A stretch of 33,007 bases of DNA from an uncultured Desulfocapsa sp. (GTDB taxonomy: Bacteria; Desulfobacterota; Desulfobulbia; Desulfobulbales; Desulfocapsaceae), in NCBI GenBank assembly GCA_947311475.1, contig CAMZLK010000031.1, positions 1-33,007 on the forward strand, in the 5' to 3' direction. The translations under genes were made by a program, and so were the position numbers. Below, one piece after another: positions 18,078 through 33,007 of this stretch; within the stretch, counting starts at the first letter, position 1; each line of letters begins with the position of its first letter. Below the pieces are notes generated by a model. The model searched no databases. It had not been told where the DNA came from and worked only from the letters and a program-made list of their open reading frames with translations.

Positions 18078-18122
18078 ATCTATTTGAGTTTCAAGACAAA
18101 CAATAAATAGTAACAGTTTAGC

Positions 18123-18365
18123 AGTGCCCCATCTTCGTGTGTTTAGGTTTGGGCGCAATAGTAAACTATGATGACCTCGTAAAAAGGTCAAAAACAGGAT
18201 GGACTTGAAAAAACCTTCATATTCGAGGCACGGAAATTTATAATATTTTCGGCGTACTAAGGTACGTTGAAAATATTATAAATTTGTAGTAACGAAGAAG
18301 ATGAAGAGTTTTTACGAGTCCATCAACTATGCGAACATAACCTAAACACATGAAGATGGGGTGCT
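18123..18365. repeat. Outer imperfect inverted repeat (arms 18123-18162 / 18326-18365) enclosing repeat family B, copy 1
   Basis: AGTGCCCCATCTTCGTGTGTTTAGGTTTGGGCGCAATAGT pairs with ACTATGCGAACATAACCTAAACACATGAAGATGGGGTGCT; about three quarters complementary. Confidence 0.85.
18170..18324 (-). repeat. Repeat family B, copy 1, with a central long hairpin (18234-18285)
   Basis: Reverse complement GATGGACTCGTAAAAACTCTTCATC...CAACGTACCTTAGTACGCCG...GCCTCGAATATGAAGG...TTGACCTTTTTAC matches 32861-33007. Stem AAATTTATAATATTTTC / GAAAATATTATAAATTT is perfect over 17 bp. Confidence 0.93.
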
Positions 18366-18374
18366 GATGAGCTG

Positions 18375-19019
18375 TTACTTCCAGCCGTGCTCTCCTATCA
18401 GGCTAACAAATCTAACACTTTCAAGTTGCTGCACTTCAATCTCACCATCTATTTTTGTAAGATAATGCAGCTCCTGCACATCACGCTCTCCAACCGGAAT
18501 CACCATACGGCCCGGATCTGCAAGCTGATCGATAAGTGGTTCAGGAATTTCAGGACTCCCTGCTGTGACAATTATGGCATCATACGGTGCATGTTCCCGC
18601 CACCCCATTGTTCCGTCATCAAGACGGGAAAGAATATTGTAACAGCGAAGCTGATCAAAAATTTTACGGGCTCCGGCAAGGAGAGTATTTATCCGTTCAA
18701 CGGTATACACGTTAGCACAAAGCCTTGAGAGTACAGCTGCCTGATATCCTGACCCTGTTCCTATTTCAAGCACTTTTTCAGTACCTTGCAACTGTAGGGC
18801 CTGGGTCATGGCAGCCACAATAAGCGGCTGGGAGATCGTCTGGTCACTGGCAATGGGAAGGGGATGATCACCATAGGCTCTTCCCTGCATGGCATCATCA
18901 ACAAAGAGGTGCCGGGGCACCTCTGACATTACTTTTAAAACATTGGAATCGCTGATACCACGGCAGGCAAGCTGCTCTGAGACCATCCGTTCACGCGCTG
19001 TGGTAAAGCGGTCCATCAT
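18375..19019 (-). CDS. pcm: Protein-L-isoaspartate O-methyltransferase
   Basis: PRHLFVDDAMQGRAYGDHPLPIASDQTISQPLIVAAMTQAL, VLEIGTGSGYQAAVLSRL. Confidence 0.96.
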   Translation of the reverse strand: MMDRFTTARERMVSEQLACRGISDSNVLKVMSEVPRHLFVDDAMQGRAYGDHPLPIASDQTISQPLIVAAMTQALQLQGTEKVLEIGTGSGYQAAVLSRLCANVYTVERINTLLAGARKIFDQLRCYNILSRLDDGTMGWREHAPYDAIIVTAGSPEIPEPLIDQLADPGRMVIPVGERDVQELHYLTKIDGEIEVQQLESVRFVSLIGEHGWK

Positions 19020-23131: not shown

Positions 23132-24175
23132 TTATCGAATTGGATAAGCATACATCAAACCACCACGAGAACTCAAATCATTAGGAGTTCCTTTTCGTAC
23201 GAGTTTAAAGACAGTACTGTCTCCAAGGTGACGTTCATACACTTCACCATAATTACCCACTTGCTTGATAATACTGTAGGCCCAGTTAGTGGGGATCTGT
23301 AATTTCTCTGCCATATCACTGGTTGCACCTTTCTCACCAAAAAGCCGTCTTACTGCCTTGGGCTGCTTATCAATATCTTTCACTATAGCATCAATATTTT
23401 TCGAAGTTACACCGTACTGCTCTGCTGTAAGCATTACCTGAAAGCTCCAAAAAAGAATGGCTTCAAGTTCCTGATCAGGTTGGCAAGCGAGAGTTAAAGG
23501 CTCATTTGAAATGATTTCAGGAAGAATTGTGTAATCAGCAGGATTGGGTGCAAGCTGTCGATCCGATAAGAGAGCTGTATAATCACTGGCAAGAACATCG
23601 CACTTGCCTGCATAGAATGCCTGCAGACGAGCTGTTTTGTCACCGATATTTTCAACCTTATAATCCATTTTACGATTTCCGAACCAGTCTGCAATATTAA
23701 GCAAAGTGGTTGAACCTTCTTCTGCACAAACCACGGCACCAGTTAGCTCAGTGGCTGATTTAACACCAAGTTTATTTGCCACCATAAAGCCCTGACCATC
23801 ATAGAATGTGGTTACTGGAAATACTAATCCGGGATCGGCATCCCGGGTACCCGTACTGGTAATGCTGCGCGATGCCATATGAGCTTTGCGGGCTACGATT
23901 GTTTTCATACTGTCAGAGAAACCAATTCCACGGATGTCAGCTTTTGTGGCATCTCCGAAGATTGCAGCTGCTGCCATGCGGCCAAACTCAGTATTGAACC
24001 CTTGGAACACACCCTTACTGTCAGGTGCTGAAAAACCGGGCGAATTTGTATTTGTTAAACAGATGATACTTCCAGATGCCTTGATTTCATCCAGAACTGG
24101 ACCTGCTGTAGCCTGTGTACCAAAAGCAGTTGTTAAGGCAAACATTCCAAAAGCTAACGTAGCAATGCGTTTCAT
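23132..24175 (-). CDS. Amino-acid ABC transporter substrate-binding protein (AapJ/BztA-like)
   Basis: Signal peptide, GFSAPDSKGVFQGFNTEFGRMAAAAIFGD..., RRLFGEKGATSDMAEKLQIPTNWAYSIIKQVGNYGEVYERHLG. Confidence 0.88.
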   Translation of the reverse strand: MKRIATLAFGMFALTTAFGTQATAGPVLDEIKASGSIICLTNTNSPGFSAPDSKGVFQGFNTEFGRMAAAAIFGDATKADIRGIGFSDSMKTIVARKAHMASRSITSTGTRDADPGLVFPVTTFYDGQGFMVANKLGVKSATELTGAVVCAEEGSTTLLNIADWFGNRKMDYKVENIGDKTARLQAFYAGKCDVLASDYTALLSDRQLAPNPADYTILPEIISNEPLTLACQPDQELEAILFWSFQVMLTAEQYGVTSKNIDAIVKDIDKQPKAVRRLFGEKGATSDMAEKLQIPTNWAYSIIKQVGNYGEVYERHLGDSTVFKLVRKGTPNDLSSRGGLMYAYPIR

Positions 24176-24262
24176 ACCAAATCTCCATTAAAAATAATAA
24201 ATTGCGCCCTGATATTATTTAATATCTGGAACACTCGTACTCTTTATTCAGATAAAACTCTT

Positions 24263-25348
24263 TTATTTTGCTCGCTCTTTCTCAAGATGGCGACCATAAG
24301 CGGATAAACACCAGCAGGAGCAGAAATACCAAATACCAACGAAAAAATATGCCTCAAGCCCGTAGCGCTGCCAACCGGGATCACTGTAAGCCATTTTTGC
24401 AGTGGAGATAATATCATGGATTCCTACAATGATGACCAGCGAAGTGTCTTTATAGCCACCTATCAAGGTGTTAAAGATAGCTGGTAGCGATTGTTTCAAT
24501 GCCTGCGGCAAAACTATCAGTAAAACTTTTGGCCAATAACTTAAACCCAGGCTGTCTGCAGCTTCAGCCTGACCCAACTCCAGCGTTTGCAGTCCACCCC
24601 TGATATCTTCTGCAAAATATGCTGCATGAAAGAGCATCAGGGCAATCAGAATTGCAAAGAGAGGTTCTAGAAAAAACCCTCGGGGCATGACCATGGGAAG
24701 AACAAACAATCCCATAAACAGAACCATTAGCAGTGGGATCCCCCGAATCAGTTCAATATAACCAGCCGCCAGGTTTTTAAGCAACTGGTAATCATCCTGA
24801 TGCCGGGCAAGGGCCAGCAGGATTCCTAGGGGGAAGGCTGCGGCAAGACTAAATACGGATAGCAGTAAGAATACCGGGAGTCCATTCCACTTCACCGTCT
24901 GCACCACTGGCAAACCGAAAACATTGCCAAGCATCAGAGCCACAAAAACAGCAGCGCTGGCAGCCCATAGCAGAATCATCCATTTAACTTTCATCCGTTT
25001 AAAGATAAGCGTTGCAACAAGCCCGATAACAACAAGGCACGCAAGGGCTGCACGCCATTGCTGTTCATATGGATAGGTACCAAACAAAATAAGCCTGGCT
25101 TTTTCCCGCATAAAGGGCCAGCAGGCCCCATCTGTTGTTCGGCAAAGGGCTTCGTCACCATTAAACCCGACAGCATCGAAAAACATCCAGGAAAACACAG
25201 CAGGTACAATCCATAACAAAAACAACACCACACTGATGGTGACAATACTATCAAAGGTGTTCCGAAACAGGTTTATCCGCATCCATCGGATTACCCCGAG
25301 TTTTTTCACAGGTGGAGAGCTGATAGTGGTGTTATTGGTATGTATCAT
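24263..25348 (-). CDS. Amino-acid ABC transporter permease (AapM/BztC-like)
   Basis: AAGYIELIRGIPLLMVLFMGLFVLP, AYFAEDIRGGLQTLELGQAEAADSLGLSYWPKVLLIVLPQALKQSLPAIFNTLIGGYKDTSLV. Confidence 0.9.
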   Translation of the reverse strand: MIHTNNTTISSPPVKKLGVIRWMRINLFRNTFDSIVTISVVLFLLWIVPAVFSWMFFDAVGFNGDEALCRTTDGACWPFMREKARLILFGTYPYEQQWRAALACLVVIGLVATLIFKRMKVKWMILLWAASAAVFVALMLGNVFGLPVVQTVKWNGLPVFLLLSVFSLAAAFPLGILLALARHQDDYQLLKNLAAGYIELIRGIPLLMVLFMGLFVLPMVMPRGFFLEPLFAILIALMLFHAAYFAEDIRGGLQTLELGQAEAADSLGLSYWPKVLLIVLPQALKQSLPAIFNTLIGGYKDTSLVIIVGIHDIISTAKMAYSDPGWQRYGLEAYFFVGIWYFCSCWCLSAYGRHLEKERAK

Positions 25349-26497
25349 TTAATTGGTCACTATTTTTGTTCGGTAATTAAACCAGTTAAGAAGAGCAGTA
25401 ACCAAAAGACTGATGGCAAGATAGGTCATCATCGTAATGGACATGAGTTCAATGGGTCTGAAGGTCTGATTAATGGAAGTACTCATCACCGATACTAGAT
25501 CCGAATAACCGATTGCAAGCGCGATGGAAGTATTTTTAATCAGATTCAGATATTGATTTCCCATTGGTGGAATGATCATACGTAAGGCCTGCGGCAAAAC
25601 TACAAAGCGTGTTACCTGAGAAGGTTTCAAGCCAAGTGATGCTGCAGCTTCGATCTGCCCTTTCTGAACAGATTGAATTCCCCCTCGAACCAACTCCGTA
25701 ATTTGACCACCATGGTAAATACTGAGAGTGAAGGCAAGAGCCACAAACTGAACAGACAAACGCGAGCCACCAGTGAAGTCAAAACCTTTAAAAACAGGGA
25801 GAGAAAACTGATAGGAAACATGAAACAATACTGAAATCAAAAGAACAGTAAGGAACAAAACTCCAAGAACAGGCCATTTCGTAGGCAGTTGTTTCCCTGT
25901 GAGATCCTGAATCCGTTTAACATACCTGCCCCAAAGCACAGCAGCAATAAACCAAACCAGGATACCAGCCAGAACAAACACCATTCCATCATGCCAAATC
26001 AATTTGGGGTAATAGAATGCGCGATTGGAAATAAAGATGCCGTTAAAAAAGTTCCATGCATGTCGCACAGTGGGAAGACGGTTGATCATGACGATGAATA
26101 CAGCCAGAAGGATCAACAGCTTTGGTAGATTCCTCAAAACTTCAACATACGCGAGTGCCAGACGGGTACCGAGCCAGTTGCTGCCTGCACGAACAATCCC
26201 CATAACTACGCCGATTATGGTAGAACCCAGGATACAAACAAATGACAGTTCCAAAGTATTTAAAAATCCGACTAACAGAACACGTGCATAGCTGTCAGAG
26301 GCTGAGTACGAAATCAGGGATTCATTCACATCAAAACCAGCTTCACCACTCAAAAATCCAAAACTGAGCCGTATTCCAACATCAGCAAGATTATCCCGAA
26401 TGTTTTGAACGATAAGGTATGCCGCGGAAAAAAGAATCGCGGCAAGAATGAGCTGAATAATGAACGAGCGTTTTTCTTTATTGGCAAGCAGGTTCAT
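25349..26497 (-). CDS. Amino-acid ABC transporter permease (AapQ/BztB-like)
   Basis: YVEVLRNLPKLLILLAVF, YHGGQITELVRGGIQSVQKGQIEAAASLGLKPSQVTRFVVLPQALRMIIPPMGNQYLNLIKNTSIALAIGYSDLV. Confidence 0.92.
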   Translation of the reverse strand: MNLLANKEKRSFIIQLILAAILFSAAYLIVQNIRDNLADVGIRLSFGFLSGEAGFDVNESLISYSASDSYARVLLVGFLNTLELSFVCILGSTIIGVVMGIVRAGSNWLGTRLALAYVEVLRNLPKLLILLAVFIVMINRLPTVRHAWNFFNGIFISNRAFYYPKLIWHDGMVFVLAGILVWFIAAVLWGRYVKRIQDLTGKQLPTKWPVLGVLFLTVLLISVLFHVSYQFSLPVFKGFDFTGGSRLSVQFVALAFTLSIYHGGQITELVRGGIQSVQKGQIEAAASLGLKPSQVTRFVVLPQALRMIIPPMGNQYLNLIKNTSIALAIGYSDLVSVMSTSINQTFRPIELMSITMMTYLAISLLVTALLNWFNYRTKIVTN

Positions 26498-26520
26498 TTA
26501 TATCAAGACCGTATAAAATG

Positions 26521-27684
26521 TTAAGATACAATTTCATCTTCCATAATGGCTAATTTATTTACACAGCAAATCATGTCTTCAACCAGTTCACACTCTTTGG
26601 CCCCCAATCGTCTCCTGTTGGAAATGTCAACTTTATCAATAACTTTAGAATGCTCCCCACTGCCGCCTCTCGCCTGACAATAGCTTTCACGAGCGATCAA
26701 ATCTATCCCTTCAAGTCCCTTTTTTGCAATAAGCTTTGGAACACGTAGATGAACACTTGCCCGCATGGCAGTTCCCAAATTTGAGGGACAGCAGGTAATC
26801 ATACCTAAAACATCATCGAACATAAATATGGAATCTCTTCGGGTAATCTTTTTTAAGCCCTTTTCAATGGCATCAATTCCACGGCTTAATCGTTCAAAAA
26901 CAGCCTTAACATCCCCTCCTTGCTCCATTGAAATAATACGCAAGTGATCTCCCTCGTTAACCCATAAAATAAACTCTTTTGATTCGCTGAGAAATATTCC
27001 TCTACCTATGGGCCAATACTCATGATGCCCTGAAGCTGCCTGCATCTTATCTTTTCCTTTAAAGAGGAAATGCTCATCTATAAGTTTTTGAGTTTGTCCT
27101 GGCGTCATCGTGGTATGACGATAAAACTCACCCTTAAGATCACCTGTAAGAGTCGGAACAACTGCTTCAATCAATTTAATGATGTCCAGTCTGCTTTGTT
27201 GTGTTCCCCCTGGGTTTAATGGGAAAAAATCAAGGTTTCTTGCAACTCTGATTCGGGTTGAGATTACTTTGTTCCTTGCCTGTTCACTGAGATCTGTTTT
27301 GATATTAGTGACATCAAGATCAGTTACATGTTTGTCTTTGGCGAGATTATAGCCCTTATGATACGACTCAATAACTGGCTTAAAAAGCACCTTGAAATCA
27401 CTATAGGATTCATGGTCGCCGGCATGGCATCCAACTGACGACGATGGATAGAGAGTTCCGGTATTTATGGCACGGGCAATTGTCCATCCGGCTGTCTTTG
27501 TTTTGTGGTTTTTCAGTGCCTCAAACTTGTCTTTGTTCATGGCCTGGGCCATAAGAGATAAGTGTTTCCCGTCTTTTTTTAACTGATCGATTTTTCCTGG
27601 CCATTGATTCCTGGCAAGGTCACCATCCATGATACGATCATAAAACGGATCGGGGTTGGATTTATCAGACATATTACCACTCAC
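26521..27684 (-). CDS. Bacterial phosphagen (guanidino) kinase, arginine-kinase type
   Basis: VISTRIRVARNLDFFPLNP, EYWPIGRGIFLSESKEFILWVNEGDHLRIISMEQGG, CCPSNLGTAMRASVHLRVPKL, RGGSGEHS, DISNRRRLGAKE: canonical ATP:guanido phosphotransferase motifs including the N-terminal domain (SVGCHAGDHESY). Confidence 0.95.
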   Translation of the reverse strand: MSGNMSDKSNPDPFYDRIMDGDLARNQWPGKIDQLKKDGKHLSLMAQAMNKDKFEALKNHKTKTAGWTIARAINTGTLYPSSSVGCHAGDHESYSDFKVLFKPVIESYHKGYNLAKDKHVTDLDVTNIKTDLSEQARNKVISTRIRVARNLDFFPLNPGGTQQSRLDIIKLIEAVVPTLTGDLKGEFYRHTTMTPGQTQKLIDEHFLFKGKDKMQAASGHHEYWPIGRGIFLSESKEFILWVNEGDHLRIISMEQGGDVKAVFERLSRGIDAIEKGLKKITRRDSIFMFDDVLGMITCCPSNLGTAMRASVHLRVPKLIAKKGLEGIDLIARESYCQARGGSGEHSKVIDKVDISNRRRLGAKECELVEDMICCVNKLAIMEDEIVS

Positions 27685-27754
27685 TCCCTTCTGGTAAGAA
27701 CAATTTAAAAGACATTATTAAACCGGGAAAACTACTATCGAAACGCAGCTTCAT

Positions 27755-28552
27755 CTATACACGCCATTTCAGGAAATAATTCTCTACTTTACCAATTACC
27801 CAGGCCATGGACAATCCCATTAGAGAGAGAATGGAAACACCCGCTATCAACTGATCTGTTGCCATCAGACTTCCAGCGAGCAGAATGTAAGCCCCCACAC
27901 CAAACTCCGCCCCAATCATCTCTGCAGCAACCAGTAAAATAATGCCGATTGAGGCCGATATTCTGAAGCCTGAAAGAATTGCAGGGAGTGCGCCAGGAAT
28001 AATAATTTTTCGAACAATGGATAAGCGGGAAAGACCAAAAGACTGTCCCATGCGAATCAGACTTCGATCAACATTATCTACACCACCATAGGTCGCAATT
28101 ACAGTTGGAAAAAAAGTGCCAAAGAGGATTGTTGCAACCTTTGAGCCCTCCCCAATACCAAACCATATTATAAAGAGCGGCAGCAGGGCGATTTTTGGAA
28201 TCGCAAAAATTGCTGAGACCAAAGGAGATAACCCTGCTCTTACATTACTGAAAAGTCCTATCAGCAAACCAACACCAACACCGAGAAGTGTGCCAAATGT
28301 CCAGCCCAATATAAGTCGTTGCAGGGATGCTCGGAGATGCTTCCACAACATGCCACTGTCAATCAGCTGTAAGAAGGCATTAAATGCTTCAGATGGGGCA
28401 GGCAATACCAAATTGCTGATAAAGCCGATATTCGATCCGAATTCCCAAAACAGAATCAGCATCACAAAAACCATCATCCAAACAGTAAAAGACGGTTTAT
28501 GGCTGAATCCTCCTCCTCGAAAAGGGACAGGATTAGTTTCGTTATCAGCCAT
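27755..28552 (-). CDS. NitT/TauT-type ABC transporter permease
   Basis: LRASLQRLILGWTFGTLLGVGVGLLIG, RMGQSFGLSRLSIVRKIIIPGALPAILSGFRIS. Start at MADNETNP. Confidence 0.9.
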   Translation of the reverse strand: MADNETNPVPFRGGGFSHKPSFTVWMMVFVMLILFWEFGSNIGFISNLVLPAPSEAFNAFLQLIDSGMLWKHLRASLQRLILGWTFGTLLGVGVGLLIGLFSNVRAGLSPLVSAIFAIPKIALLPLFIIWFGIGEGSKVATILFGTFFPTVIATYGGVDNVDRSLIRMGQSFGLSRLSIVRKIIIPGALPAILSGFRISASIGIILLVAAEMIGAEFGVGAYILLAGSLMATDQLIAGVSILSLMGLSMAWVIGKVENYFLKWRV

Positions 28553-29312
28553 TGAGTAACTCCCGATCCGCAGCACGCGCATCATCACGCATCAATCTCC
28601 ACAGGTAGTGCTGCACCTCGTCAAGCTCTTCGTTGTCTGCACCACGTTCACTAAGAGGCTTGTCAATTTTTACAATCTCACGCACCCTGCCCGGCCTGCG
28701 GGAGAGAACCACTATTCTGTGGCCGAAACGTACTGCTTCCTGGAGATTATGGGTAACATAAATGGCAGTAAAGGATTCACGCATCCAGAGATCAATCAAA
28801 TCGTCCATCAGCAATTCACGAGTCTGGCTGTCAAGTGCTGAAAGAGGTTCATCCATCAACATCACTGCCGGTCTGACAGCCAGAGCACGGGCAATGGCCA
28901 CTCGCTGTTTCATGCCCCCGGAAAGCTGGCGGGGCCATGCTTTCTTAAAATCGCTGAGATGGGTTCGACTGAGTACATCATCTATAATTTTCCGTGATTC
29001 CTGCTTACTAATCGGATGATCTTCAAGAGCCAGGCTGATGTTGCCTTCCACCGTGCGCCAGGGTAGCAGAGCAAAATCCTGAAAAATATAGGTTAAGGGA
29101 TTGAGCGAAGATTTCGGTGGTTCCCCAAGCAGCAAGACCTCTCCCGAATCAGGTCGTTCCAGACCTCCCATCAAACGAAGCAGAGTTGACTTACCACAAC
29201 CTGACGGACCGACGATACAGATAATCTCACCTCCGCTTACGGTCAGGTCGATATCATCCAATACCGTCATATCGCCATAAGCGTGTGTAATATTATTGAG
29301 CTGCAGATCCAT
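28545..29312 (-). CDS. NitT/TauT-type ABC transporter ATPase
   Basis: IVGPSGCGKSTLLRLMGGLERPDSG (Walker A), LSGGMKQRVAIARALAVRPAVMLMDEPLSALD. Start at MDLQLNN (29312). Confidence 0.93.
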   Translation of the reverse strand: MDLQLNNITHAYGDMTVLDDIDLTVSGGEIICIVGPSGCGKSTLLRLMGGLERPDSGEVLLLGEPPKSSLNPLTYIFQDFALLPWRTVEGNISLALEDHPISKQESRKIIDDVLSRTHLSDFKKAWPRQLSGGMKQRVAIARALAVRPAVMLMDEPLSALDSQTRELLMDDLIDLWMRESFTAIYVTHNLQEAVRFGHRIVVLSRRPGRVREIVKIDKPLSERGADNEELDEVQHYLWRLMRDDARAADRELLNG

Positions 29313-29379
29313 AAAAATGAAAAAATGAAAAAATGAAGACGGCAGACTCTGAGGAATACCCGTCATGACAATGAAGGAA

Positions 29380-30414
29380 TTAATAGGTTTCAACAAAAGT
29401 CGGGTCAACAATCGTATCAATGGTAATACTCTTTGACACCATATTTTCCGACTGAAACCAGGCGAGTTGATCTTTGACATTTGTGATATTCAGCTTTGCA
29501 TTCTTATTGATACGCATGGCACCGTTACGAATAGAAGGTGCTGCCTTTTCATAGGGCCTGCTCACATAGACATACTTGTGGATGAGTTTAATCATATCCT
29601 CTGCTGCAGCGTCTCCTGCTGTTTTATCAACCAGTGCAGCATTAAAGTCATCTGCTCCTTTTGAAAATGCTTTCAGAAAACGCTTTACCATCTCTTTTTT
29701 ATCAGAAGCATTCGCAGTAGAAGTAAAAACCGTGGTTACCTGATAGTCAGGTATGTAATCGGATACTTTTCCGATCATTTCTACAGTGGGGCCCTTGGCC
29801 AATCCTTTTGCGATATGAGGAACAATGGACCAGGAATCGATCTGACCAGATTTCAAAGCACCAATTATGACACCAACCTTCTGCAATGGTTTGACCTTGA
29901 TATCACTGCGTGCAAACCCTTCTTTATCAGCTATCTTATGCGCCACATAATGAAAAGAAGAACCCGTTTGTGTAATTCCAAAGCTTTTCCCTTTCAAGGC
30001 GGCAGGTGAAGTAAGGCCTGAATCGTAAGCCTTTTTAGAGGCTAAAATCATCTGGCCGTCAATTCCAGGTTCTTCATGCAACACTCCTCCAATAACCTTG
30101 ATGGCACCTTTTTCAGCAAGATTAATCAAACCTCCAGAGATAGGTGCTACACCAAAATCCACATCACCTGATGCAATAGCCACCGCAATTGGCTGTGCAG
30201 CCTGGAAAAATTTAATCTCCACATCCAGCCCTTCATCCTTAAAATAACCCCGTTCATAGGCCACAAAAGTTGCAGCGTGTGATGTGAAGCGCAATGCACC
30301 CACAGCTATTTTATCTGCAGCTGCAACCGTGGATAAACATCCTGCCCAAAATGTTGCGGTAAACATACTGACCACTAAAAACTTCCCTAATTGCCGTTTG
30401 CTAATTGAAATCAT
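29380..30414 (-). CDS. NitT/TauT-type ABC transporter substrate-binding protein
   Basis: Signal peptide; VGALRFTSHAATFVAYERGYFKDEGLDVEIKFFQAAQPIAVAIASGDVDFGVAPISGG (NMT1/SBP_bac fold). Start at MISISKRQ. Confidence 0.85.
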   Translation of the reverse strand: MISISKRQLGKFLVVSMFTATFWAGCLSTVAAADKIAVGALRFTSHAATFVAYERGYFKDEGLDVEIKFFQAAQPIAVAIASGDVDFGVAPISGGLINLAEKGAIKVIGGVLHEEPGIDGQMILASKKAYDSGLTSPAALKGKSFGITQTGSSFHYVAHKIADKEGFARSDIKVKPLQKVGVIIGALKSGQIDSWSIVPHIAKGLAKGPTVEMIGKVSDYIPDYQVTTVFTSTANASDKKEMVKRFLKAFSKGADDFNAALVDKTAGDAAAEDMIKLIHKYVYVSRPYEKAAPSIRNGAMRINKNAKLNITNVKDQLAWFQSENMVSKSITIDTIVDPTFVETY

Positions 30415-30689: not shown

Positions 30690-31142
30690 ATGCAAAACGA
30701 AAAACTCAGCAAACAACATCTTAAACAGCTCAAGCAACTCTGTAATGAAGCGGGTATTAAACTTACCCACCAGAGGCTCGAGATTTTCAAAGAGCTCATG
30801 GCTGTCTGTGACCATCCGTCTGCTGAATTGATTCATCAAAGAATCCACAAAAAACTTCCTACCATAGCCATCGACACTGTTTATCGGACCTTGGCCACTT
30901 TTGACGAACTAGGTCTGGTCAAAAAACTTCATATTATGAATGAACGAACGCTATTTGATACAAACGTGACTATTCACCATCATTTTATCTGCACCCACTG
31001 TAAGAAAGTAGAGGATATTTACTGGTCTGATTTTGACAATTCAACACTTCCTGAAGTGGTGAAAGGTATGGGGAAGGTTCAATCCAGACACCTTGAGATT
31101 CATGGTGTCTGCAACGACTGCCTGAATACAAATGAGAAATAA
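30690..31142 (+). CDS. Fur-family regulator, PerR-like
   Basis: Fur fold; CDHPSAELIHQRI, TLFDTNVTIHHHFICTHCKKVEDIYW, HGVCNDCLN; retains residues equivalent to PerR H37, D85, H91 and H93 plus two CxxC zinc motifs. Confidence 0.85.
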   Translation: MQNEKLSKQHLKQLKQLCNEAGIKLTHQRLEIFKELMAVCDHPSAELIHQRIHKKLPTIAIDTVYRTLATFDELGLVKKLHIMNERTLFDTNVTIHHHFICTHCKKVEDIYWSDFDNSTLPEVVKGMGKVQSRHLEIHGVCNDCLNTNEK

Positions 31143-31200
31143 ACAGTGTTGTTTTAAAGGCTTTTTTTTGGTCATCCAGTAAGAACGAATCTTATCAAAG

Positions 31201-31215
31201 ATATAATCATAACGA
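31201..31215. promoter_or_regulatory. Weak candidate Per-box upstream of catalase
   Basis: ATATAATCATAACGA: good left half-site and centre, degenerate right half. Confidence 0.25.
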
Positions 31216-31282
31216 AGAGCCCCCCTAACAACAGGGCATGCTCTGATAAAAACATAAAACTCAACAGTCAAGGAGAGGCAAC

Positions 31283-32743
31283 ATGTCAGAAAAAAAGAAA
31301 TTAACTAACAACGCTGGTGCTCCAGTAGGTGATAACCAAAATGTATTAACGGCAGGTGCACGTGGGCCTCTACTGATGCAGGATGTCTGGTATCTTGAGA
31401 AACTTGCCCATTTCGACAGAGAAGTCATTCCGGAAAGACGTATGCATGCAAAAGGATCTGGAGCATATGGTACCTTTACTGTCAGCCATGATATCACAAA
31501 GTATACCAAGGCAAATATCTTTTCGGAAATTGGTAAAAAAACAGAAGTATTTTCAAGGTTTTCAACCGTTGCAGGAGAGCGGGGGGCGGCTGATGCAGAA
31601 CGCGATATCCGTGGATTTGCCTTGAAATTTTACACTGATGAAGGGAATTGGGATCTGGTTGGCAACAATACACCAGTCTTTTTCCTTCGAGATCCTTTAA
31701 AGTTCCCGGATCTCAACCATGCAGTAAAGCGAGACCCACGAACCAATATGCGCAGTGCCAAAAACAACTGGGATTTCTGGACGTCATTGCCTGAAGCTCT
31801 GCATCAAGTGACCATCACCATGAGTGACCGTGGCATTCCGACAAGCTATCGCCATATGCACGGCTTTGGCAGCCACACTTTCAGCCTGATTAATGCAGAC
31901 AATGAACGATTCTGGGTAAAATTCCATTTTCATACACAACAGGGAATTAAAAATCTTACCGATGCCGAAGCTGAGAAAATTGTAGGAAAATGCAGGGAAA
32001 GTCATCAGGAGGATCTCTATGAAAGTATAGAAAAAGGAGATTTTCCACGCTGGACCATGTTTATTCAGGTGATGCCTGAAAAGGAAGCTGCAAACTGCCC
32101 CTACAACCCCTTTGACTTAACCAAAGTCTGGTTCCACAAGGATTACCCGCTCATTGAAGTTGGAGTTCTAGAGCTAAACCGCAATCCGGAGAACTATTTT
32201 GCAGAAGTTGAACAATCTGCGTTTAATCCAGCCAGTGTTGTACCCGGGATAGGGTTTTCTCCAGACAAAATGTTGCAGGGCAGGCTTTTTTCATATGGCG
32301 ATGCACAACGTTACCGTTTAGGAGTGAACCATCAGCAAATACCTGTCAATGCCCCCCGCTGCCCGTTCCACAATTATCACCGGGACGGAGCCATGCGGGT
32401 TGACGGTAACCACGGTAGTACCATCGGATATGAACCAAACAGTTATGAAGAATGGCAGGAACAGCCTGATTTCAACGAACCACCACTTAGCCTTGAAGGA
32501 GCAGCCGATCATTGGAATCACCGGGAAGACACTGACTATTTCAGCCAGCCCGGAAAACTCTTTCGACTCATGAGTACTGAGCAGCAACAGGTATTATTTG
32601 ACAACACGGCAAGAGCCATGGGCGATGCACCTGAGGAGATCAAAATGCGCCATATCGGAAACTGTCTCAAAGCCGACCCTGATTATGGAAAAGGTGTGGC
32701 AAAAGCACTTGGATTGTCACTAACGCGGATAAACAGCAAGTAA
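31283..32743 (+). CDS. katA: Heme catalase (small-subunit, clade-3-like)
   Basis: [99 protein letters not shown]. Confidence 0.97.
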
Positions 32744-32831: not shown

Positions 32832-32860
32832 ACGCAGAACAATAGAATTAATAAAATTTG

Positions 32861-33007
32861 ATGGCGTCGTAAAAACTCTTCATCTGCTTCGTTGCTACAT
32901 TTTTTATCTAATTTCAACGTACCTTAGTACGCTGAAATTAAATAAAAATGTGCGCCTCGCATATGAAGCTTTTTACTTAGCCATCTTTCAATTGACCTTT
33001 TTACTAG
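32861..33007 (+). repeat. Repeat family B, copy 2, with a central hairpin (32898-32950)
   Basis: GATGGCGTCGTAAAAACTCTTCATCTGCTTCGTTGCTACA...AACGTACCTTAGTACGCTG...GCGCCTCGCATATGAAGC...TTGACCTTTTTAC; may run past the window edge. Confidence 0.92.

Follow-up and report, generated by a model that had tools for sequence, protein, structure and literature searches.

The genome of an uncultured marine sulfur bacterium, Desulfocapsa sp., carries the gene for a rare, animal-type energy-storage kinase beside genes for an amino-acid importer. Which compound might such a kinase phosphorylate, and which of the neighbouring transporter genes belong to it? A preliminary description of the locus had proposed one operon for uptake of a guanidino or taurine-like compound and for energy buffering, formed by two ABC importers with an arginine-type kinase between them. 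Our analysis was performed on the window, the whole 33 007-nucleotide stretch presented here as contig C31 of a 3.16-Mb assembly (95.6% complete), and on the genomes of related bacteria.

Organization of the seven-gene array

Seven open reading frames are located on the minus strand in the order NitT/TauT-type A, B and C, phosphagen kinase, AapQ, AapM and AapJ, as assigned by Pfam and NCBIfam profiles. The first three encode a TauA/SsuA-like binding protein of the NMT1 family (29380–30414), an ABC ATPase of TauB/SsuB type (28545–29318) and a TauC/SsuC-type permease with a BPD_transp_1 domain (27755–28552). They are followed by the genes for a two-domain protein of the phosphagen kinase family (26521–27672, 383 residues), for two HAAT permeases, AapQ-like (25349–26497) and AapM-like (24263–25348), and for an AapJ-like periplasmic binding protein with an SBP_bac_3 domain (23132–24175). 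The array ends at an intrinsic-terminator-like hairpin (23117–23084, minus strand) with a 14-bp stem, the longest among 10 terminator-like matches (7.1 expected by chance). The gene array, the protein families and the strong terminator of the preliminary description are thus borne out. The tight spacing was recovered as well: ATPase and permease genes overlap by 8 bp (provided that TauC starts at ATG 28552), kinase and AapQ are 23 nt apart, and AapQ and AapM are directly adjacent (0 nt). The other gaps are 61 nt (TauA–TauB), 82 nt (TauC–kinase) and 87 nt (AapM–AapJ).

Two gene starts were corrected. The TauB start was set to about 29318; the longest reading frame, from 29480, would run into TauA. 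ATG 27672 was chosen for the kinase because GTG 27684 sits at the Shine-Dalgarno-like sequence AGAAGGGAG and the gene of the sister species has the same start, yielding 383 residues. Judged from spacing alone, co-transcription of the seven genes is plausible. A promoter scan was at chance level (20 found, 16 expected).

Upstream of the importer array, and divergent from it, are genes for a Fur/PerR-type regulator and then a catalase (30690–32743), likely a peroxide-response pair. The window also contains two copies (18109–18379 and 32854–32986) of a short dispersed repeat that also occurs in other genomes (L029, 1878–2007 and 3292–3420; L034, 11298–11431). The copy at 18109–18379 has a MITE-like look, with an inner palindrome flanked by inverted arms of 41 nt that are 85% complementary. 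In genome G031, one copy of this repeat sits between TauB and TauA.

The kinase: ATP site and acceptor site

The kinase has the domain pair of a true phosphagen kinase, PF00217 (207 bits) and PF02807 (61 bits), both above the cut-offs, and its best PDB matches are arginine kinases (E about 1e-70 or better). Assignment to the McsB protein-arginine kinases was rejected, as the equivalog score of 92 bits falls short of the cut-off of 500 and PF02807 is present. Residues are given in Limulus numbering, transferred via the spider enzyme, of which 331 residues match residues 22–352 of 1m15 end to end. The arginines contacting the ATP phosphates (124, 126, 229, 280, 309 and 330) are all kept, leaving the ATP site complete. 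Cys271, Asn274, His284 and Glu314 are also present, among them the combination of Glu314 and Cys271 expected for an arginine kinase.

Four other positions are substituted, in the same way in both species: Glu225 to Gly, Tyr68 to His, Asp62 to Ser and Arg193 to Lys. The first of these changes turns the active-site NEED of the family into NEGD (kinase residues 239–242, with Gly241 equivalent to Limulus Glu225; 26947–26958, minus strand), encoded by AAC GAG GGA GAT in both species. Arginine binding involves Tyr68 and the loop Asp62-Ser63-Gly64-Val65, for which we found His68 and Ser62-Ser63-Ser64-Val65. The kinase further contains an N-terminal extension of about 36 residues and, relative to arginine kinases, an insertion of eight residues, KITRRDSI (residues 275–282; 26827–26850, minus strand). 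The insertion, too, is common to window and sister species. A single-sequence structure prediction was too poor for use (pLDDT 33).

Every other sequence compared has Glu at position 225, including the fluke taurocyamine kinase, save one PDB copy of mitochondrial creatine kinase, apparently an engineered variant, in which the motif reads NEQD. The two arginine kinases in the comparison (spider, anemone) have Glu225, Tyr68 and Asp62 unchanged, and the same holds for four other bacterial homologues, namely three Desulfocapsaceae kinases and a Bandiella plasmid kinase. According to published models, the substrate guanidinium is contacted both in plane and out of plane by Glu225, which also helps to polarise the attacking nitrogen (PMC11075012), while Tyr68 contacts the amino group of the substrate arginine (PMC5598448). 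Of the earlier term ‘arginine-type phosphagen kinase’, the second part stands; a plain arginine type does not fit the replacement of Tyr68 and Glu225 in both species, and such an activity appears doubtful from these residues.

Comparison with related genomes

The sister species (G024, DQTH01000277) shares with the window a DNA segment of about 91% identity (24223–27734, minus strand), which spans a 62-bp leader, the kinase, AapQ and AapM only; the flanks are non-homologous. Upstream of the sister kinase we found genes for a DUF1638 protein and TilS, not TauABC. About 600 nt separate the DUF1638 gene (L011:4235–4846) from the kinase. On the other side, homology breaks inside the AapM–AapJ gap and AapJ is not next to AapM; the only AapJ-like match of the sister is the canonical AapJ (42%), although its contig stops 126 bp past AapM and a displaced copy could lie beyond. 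Kinase and AapQ are separated by 108 nt in the sister, as against 23 nt in the window. The AapM reading frame of the sister is broken by the loss of 1 nt (L011:594–620); low dN/dS on either side points to a deletion of recent date or to an error of assembly. Between window and sister, dN/dS is 0.146 for the kinase, 0.100 for AapQ and 0.04–0.09 for AapM. This range indicates purifying selection, which argues that the altered kinase is retained and not simply decaying.

TauABC is present without the kinase in three other members of the family (G031, G033 and G035; TauA protein identity 82–88%). Its DNA homology ends at 27761, immediately ahead of the TauC stop codon, and that of the kinase block at 27734, which places the junction within about 27735–27760. 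By these boundaries, the locus is composed of two adjoining modules, a stand-alone TauABC and kinase–AapQ–AapM, with AapJ appended in this genome; kinase–AapQ–AapM is the apparent inherited unit. The link to TauABC is local, while that to AapQM recurs, in one other species only. The linkage of kinase and transporters expected by the preliminary description upon synteny comparison is therefore divided: the part with AapQM recurs under purifying selection, the part with TauABC does not.

The importer genes

AapQ is 93% identical to its sister counterpart and at most 43% identical to anything else in the genus and in a sample of 395 genomes from the phylum. Nothing else in the bacterial family is more than 44% identical to AapJ. 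In binding proteins of this kind, an Arg and an Asp of the anchor motifs hold the carboxylate and the amino group of the amino acid. Both are retained in AapJ, and several nearby residues differ. The set resembles the general amino-acid importer AapJQMP in its J, Q and M homologues but differs in the order (kinase–Q–M–J, as compared with J–Q–M–P in the canonical operons examined) and in the absence of the ATPase AapP, so that binding protein and two permeases are not joined by an ATPase. A complete AapJQMP operon is located elsewhere in the host genome (G000:C36), about 40% identical to the kinase-linked genes.

The other importer has the A, B and C genes of NitT/TauT systems (TauABC/SsuABC) in order, but all three proteins score below the NCBIfam equivalog cut-offs, which supports only the broad NitT/TauT/SsuA kind, and the set is independent of the kinase.

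Distribution and relatives of the kinase

PF02807 was detected in five of 93 genomes of the family, five of 258 of the order and, in a phylum-wide sample, in one of 395, the genome of the window itself. Of the other 19 genomes of the genus, 18 lack it, and all 14 control genomes were negative as well. Three other Desulfocapsaceae (G039, G056 and G068) have lone arginine-kinase-like genes (L008:3763–4785, L009:2559–3557 and L010:10588–11583). These encode the same domain pair in the same bacterial family, but are 35–38% identical, have NEED and Tyr68 intact, and lie in unrelated neighbourhoods without importers. Arginine kinases are known from Desulfotalea psychrophila, Myxococcus xanthus and Sulfurovum (PMC6429109), likewise ATP:guanido phosphotransferases of proteobacterial or desulfobacterial hosts. 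Compared by description only, the present kinase differs from them in the replacement of Glu225, Tyr68 and Asp62, the eight-residue insertion, the N-terminal extension and the adjoining importer genes. The ATP site is conserved in animal arginine kinases (spider 7re6, anemone 4rf6 and Limulus 1m15; 43–45% identity for spider and anemone) and in creatine kinase (1qk1; 39%), which has a shorter insertion at the place of the eight-residue one. The changed acceptor site and the bacterial gene context set the present kinase apart from these animal enzymes. A literature search for linkage of such kinases to transporters found nothing relevant.

Whether bacterial phosphagen kinases are ancient or were acquired from eukaryotes is debated (PMC6429109). 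A small tree decides neither whether the bacterial kinases form a single group (AU p-value of 0.28 for monophyly) nor whether the lineage studied here joins creatine kinase (support of 59), and gives no ground for claiming a separate transfer or for dating the gene or tracing its source. The GC content of the kinase gene is 41.4% (window, 43.8%), and neither GC nor GC3 shows a sign of recent foreign origin. No matches were obtained when viral contigs were scanned with the kinase alignment. Plasmid and phage searches revealed mainly McsB-like partial matches. Besides these, a single true homologue came up, carried by a plasmid of the Rickettsiales bacterium Candidatus Bandiella woodruffii, which lives as an endosymbiont in the ciliate Euplotes. 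This gene (L035:4866–5963; NZ_CP110821.1, 55143–56240) is annotated as hypothetical and encodes a full two-domain phosphagen kinase with a hydrophobic N-terminal stretch; transposase genes follow it.

Discussion

The kinase could be a slow arginine kinase, an ATP-binding sensor or a kinase with an altered acceptor, and the last is the simplest reading. We favour, with a probability of about 0.4, a selected kinase of altered acceptor specificity that is tied to an Aap-type amino-acid importer, in a locus of two side-by-side modules. With its full domain pair, intact ATP site and remodelled acceptor site, the protein would most likely phosphorylate an acceptor that resembles an amino acid but is not plain L-arginine. 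The acceptor would enter through the Aap-type permease, which presumably borrows an ATPase, for example the canonical AapP encoded elsewhere. In favour of this reading, we count the intact ATP-side residues together with the identical changes of Glu225, Tyr68 and Asp62 in both species, and also the anchor motifs of AapJ, the complete AapJQMP operon in the same genome and the independence of TauABC. Several points count against it: the kinase–AapQM linkage is confined to two sister species and could be a historical accident; the frameshift in the sister AapM and the non-adjacent AapJ may mean that the importer is incomplete there; the cluster is devoid of AapP; and mutants of Limulus Glu225 are still partly active, which would leave room for arginine as a substrate. 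A bolder version is speculative and, in our estimate, unlikely: a lineage with the reaction-centre Glu and the arginine-head Tyr replaced would phosphorylate a different amino-acid-like acceptor delivered by a dedicated Aap-type permease, giving an undescribed phosphagen or phosphoramidate metabolite, possibly for trapping the import.

Among the alternatives, the one that survives best, if still doubtful, is a conventional arginine kinase serving as an energy buffer, slowed by the change of Glu225 and supplied with arginine by the Aap-type genes. The closest solved relatives are arginine kinases, the guanidino-specificity loop has arginine-kinase length, and neither Glu314 nor Cys271 nor any ATP-site arginine is lost; there are precedents in Desulfotalea, Myxococcus and Sulfurovum (PMC6429109). 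However, Glu225, Tyr68 and Asp62 are lost together, and the three other Desulfocapsaceae kinases that keep these residues sit alone, without importers.

Computational and structural work places the lost Glu at the reaction centre (PMC11075012), which would suit a catalytically dead or sensor-like homologue that binds ATP or ADP as well as an amino acid and acts as a regulator of the importer or of metabolism. The complete ATP site and purifying selection agree with this, but Glu314 and Cys271 would be needless for a pure sensor, and an effector domain is neither fused nor neighbouring; we regard such a role as unlikely. That the kinase stands beside the permease genes by chance, with no functional link, is improbable: its distribution is rare and patchy, the linkage recurs a single time and the kinase–AapQ gap varies (108 against 23 nt), yet kinase and AapQM stayed joined while both flanks changed. 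Least probable is the complete earlier model of one guanidino/taurine uptake and energy-buffer operon with both importers, which has in its favour seven co-directional genes with short gaps, and fails on a TauABC that is stand-alone in three genomes, missing upstream of the sister kinase and cut off by a break in homology in the gap at 27735–27760, and on the host genome, in which no PF02274 gene (arginine deiminase/amidinotransferase fold) was found. Thus, nothing points to the usual pathway for making taurocyamine, glycocyamine or creatine, although these compounds could still be imported. The model should no longer include the taurine-type importer, TauABC.

Few bacterial phosphagen kinases are known. 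A variant that lacks the reaction-centre Glu and is maintained by selection provides a natural test of the way in which these enzymes choose and activate their acceptor, and its stable linkage to an amino-acid permease offers a concrete handle on the substrate of the kinase.
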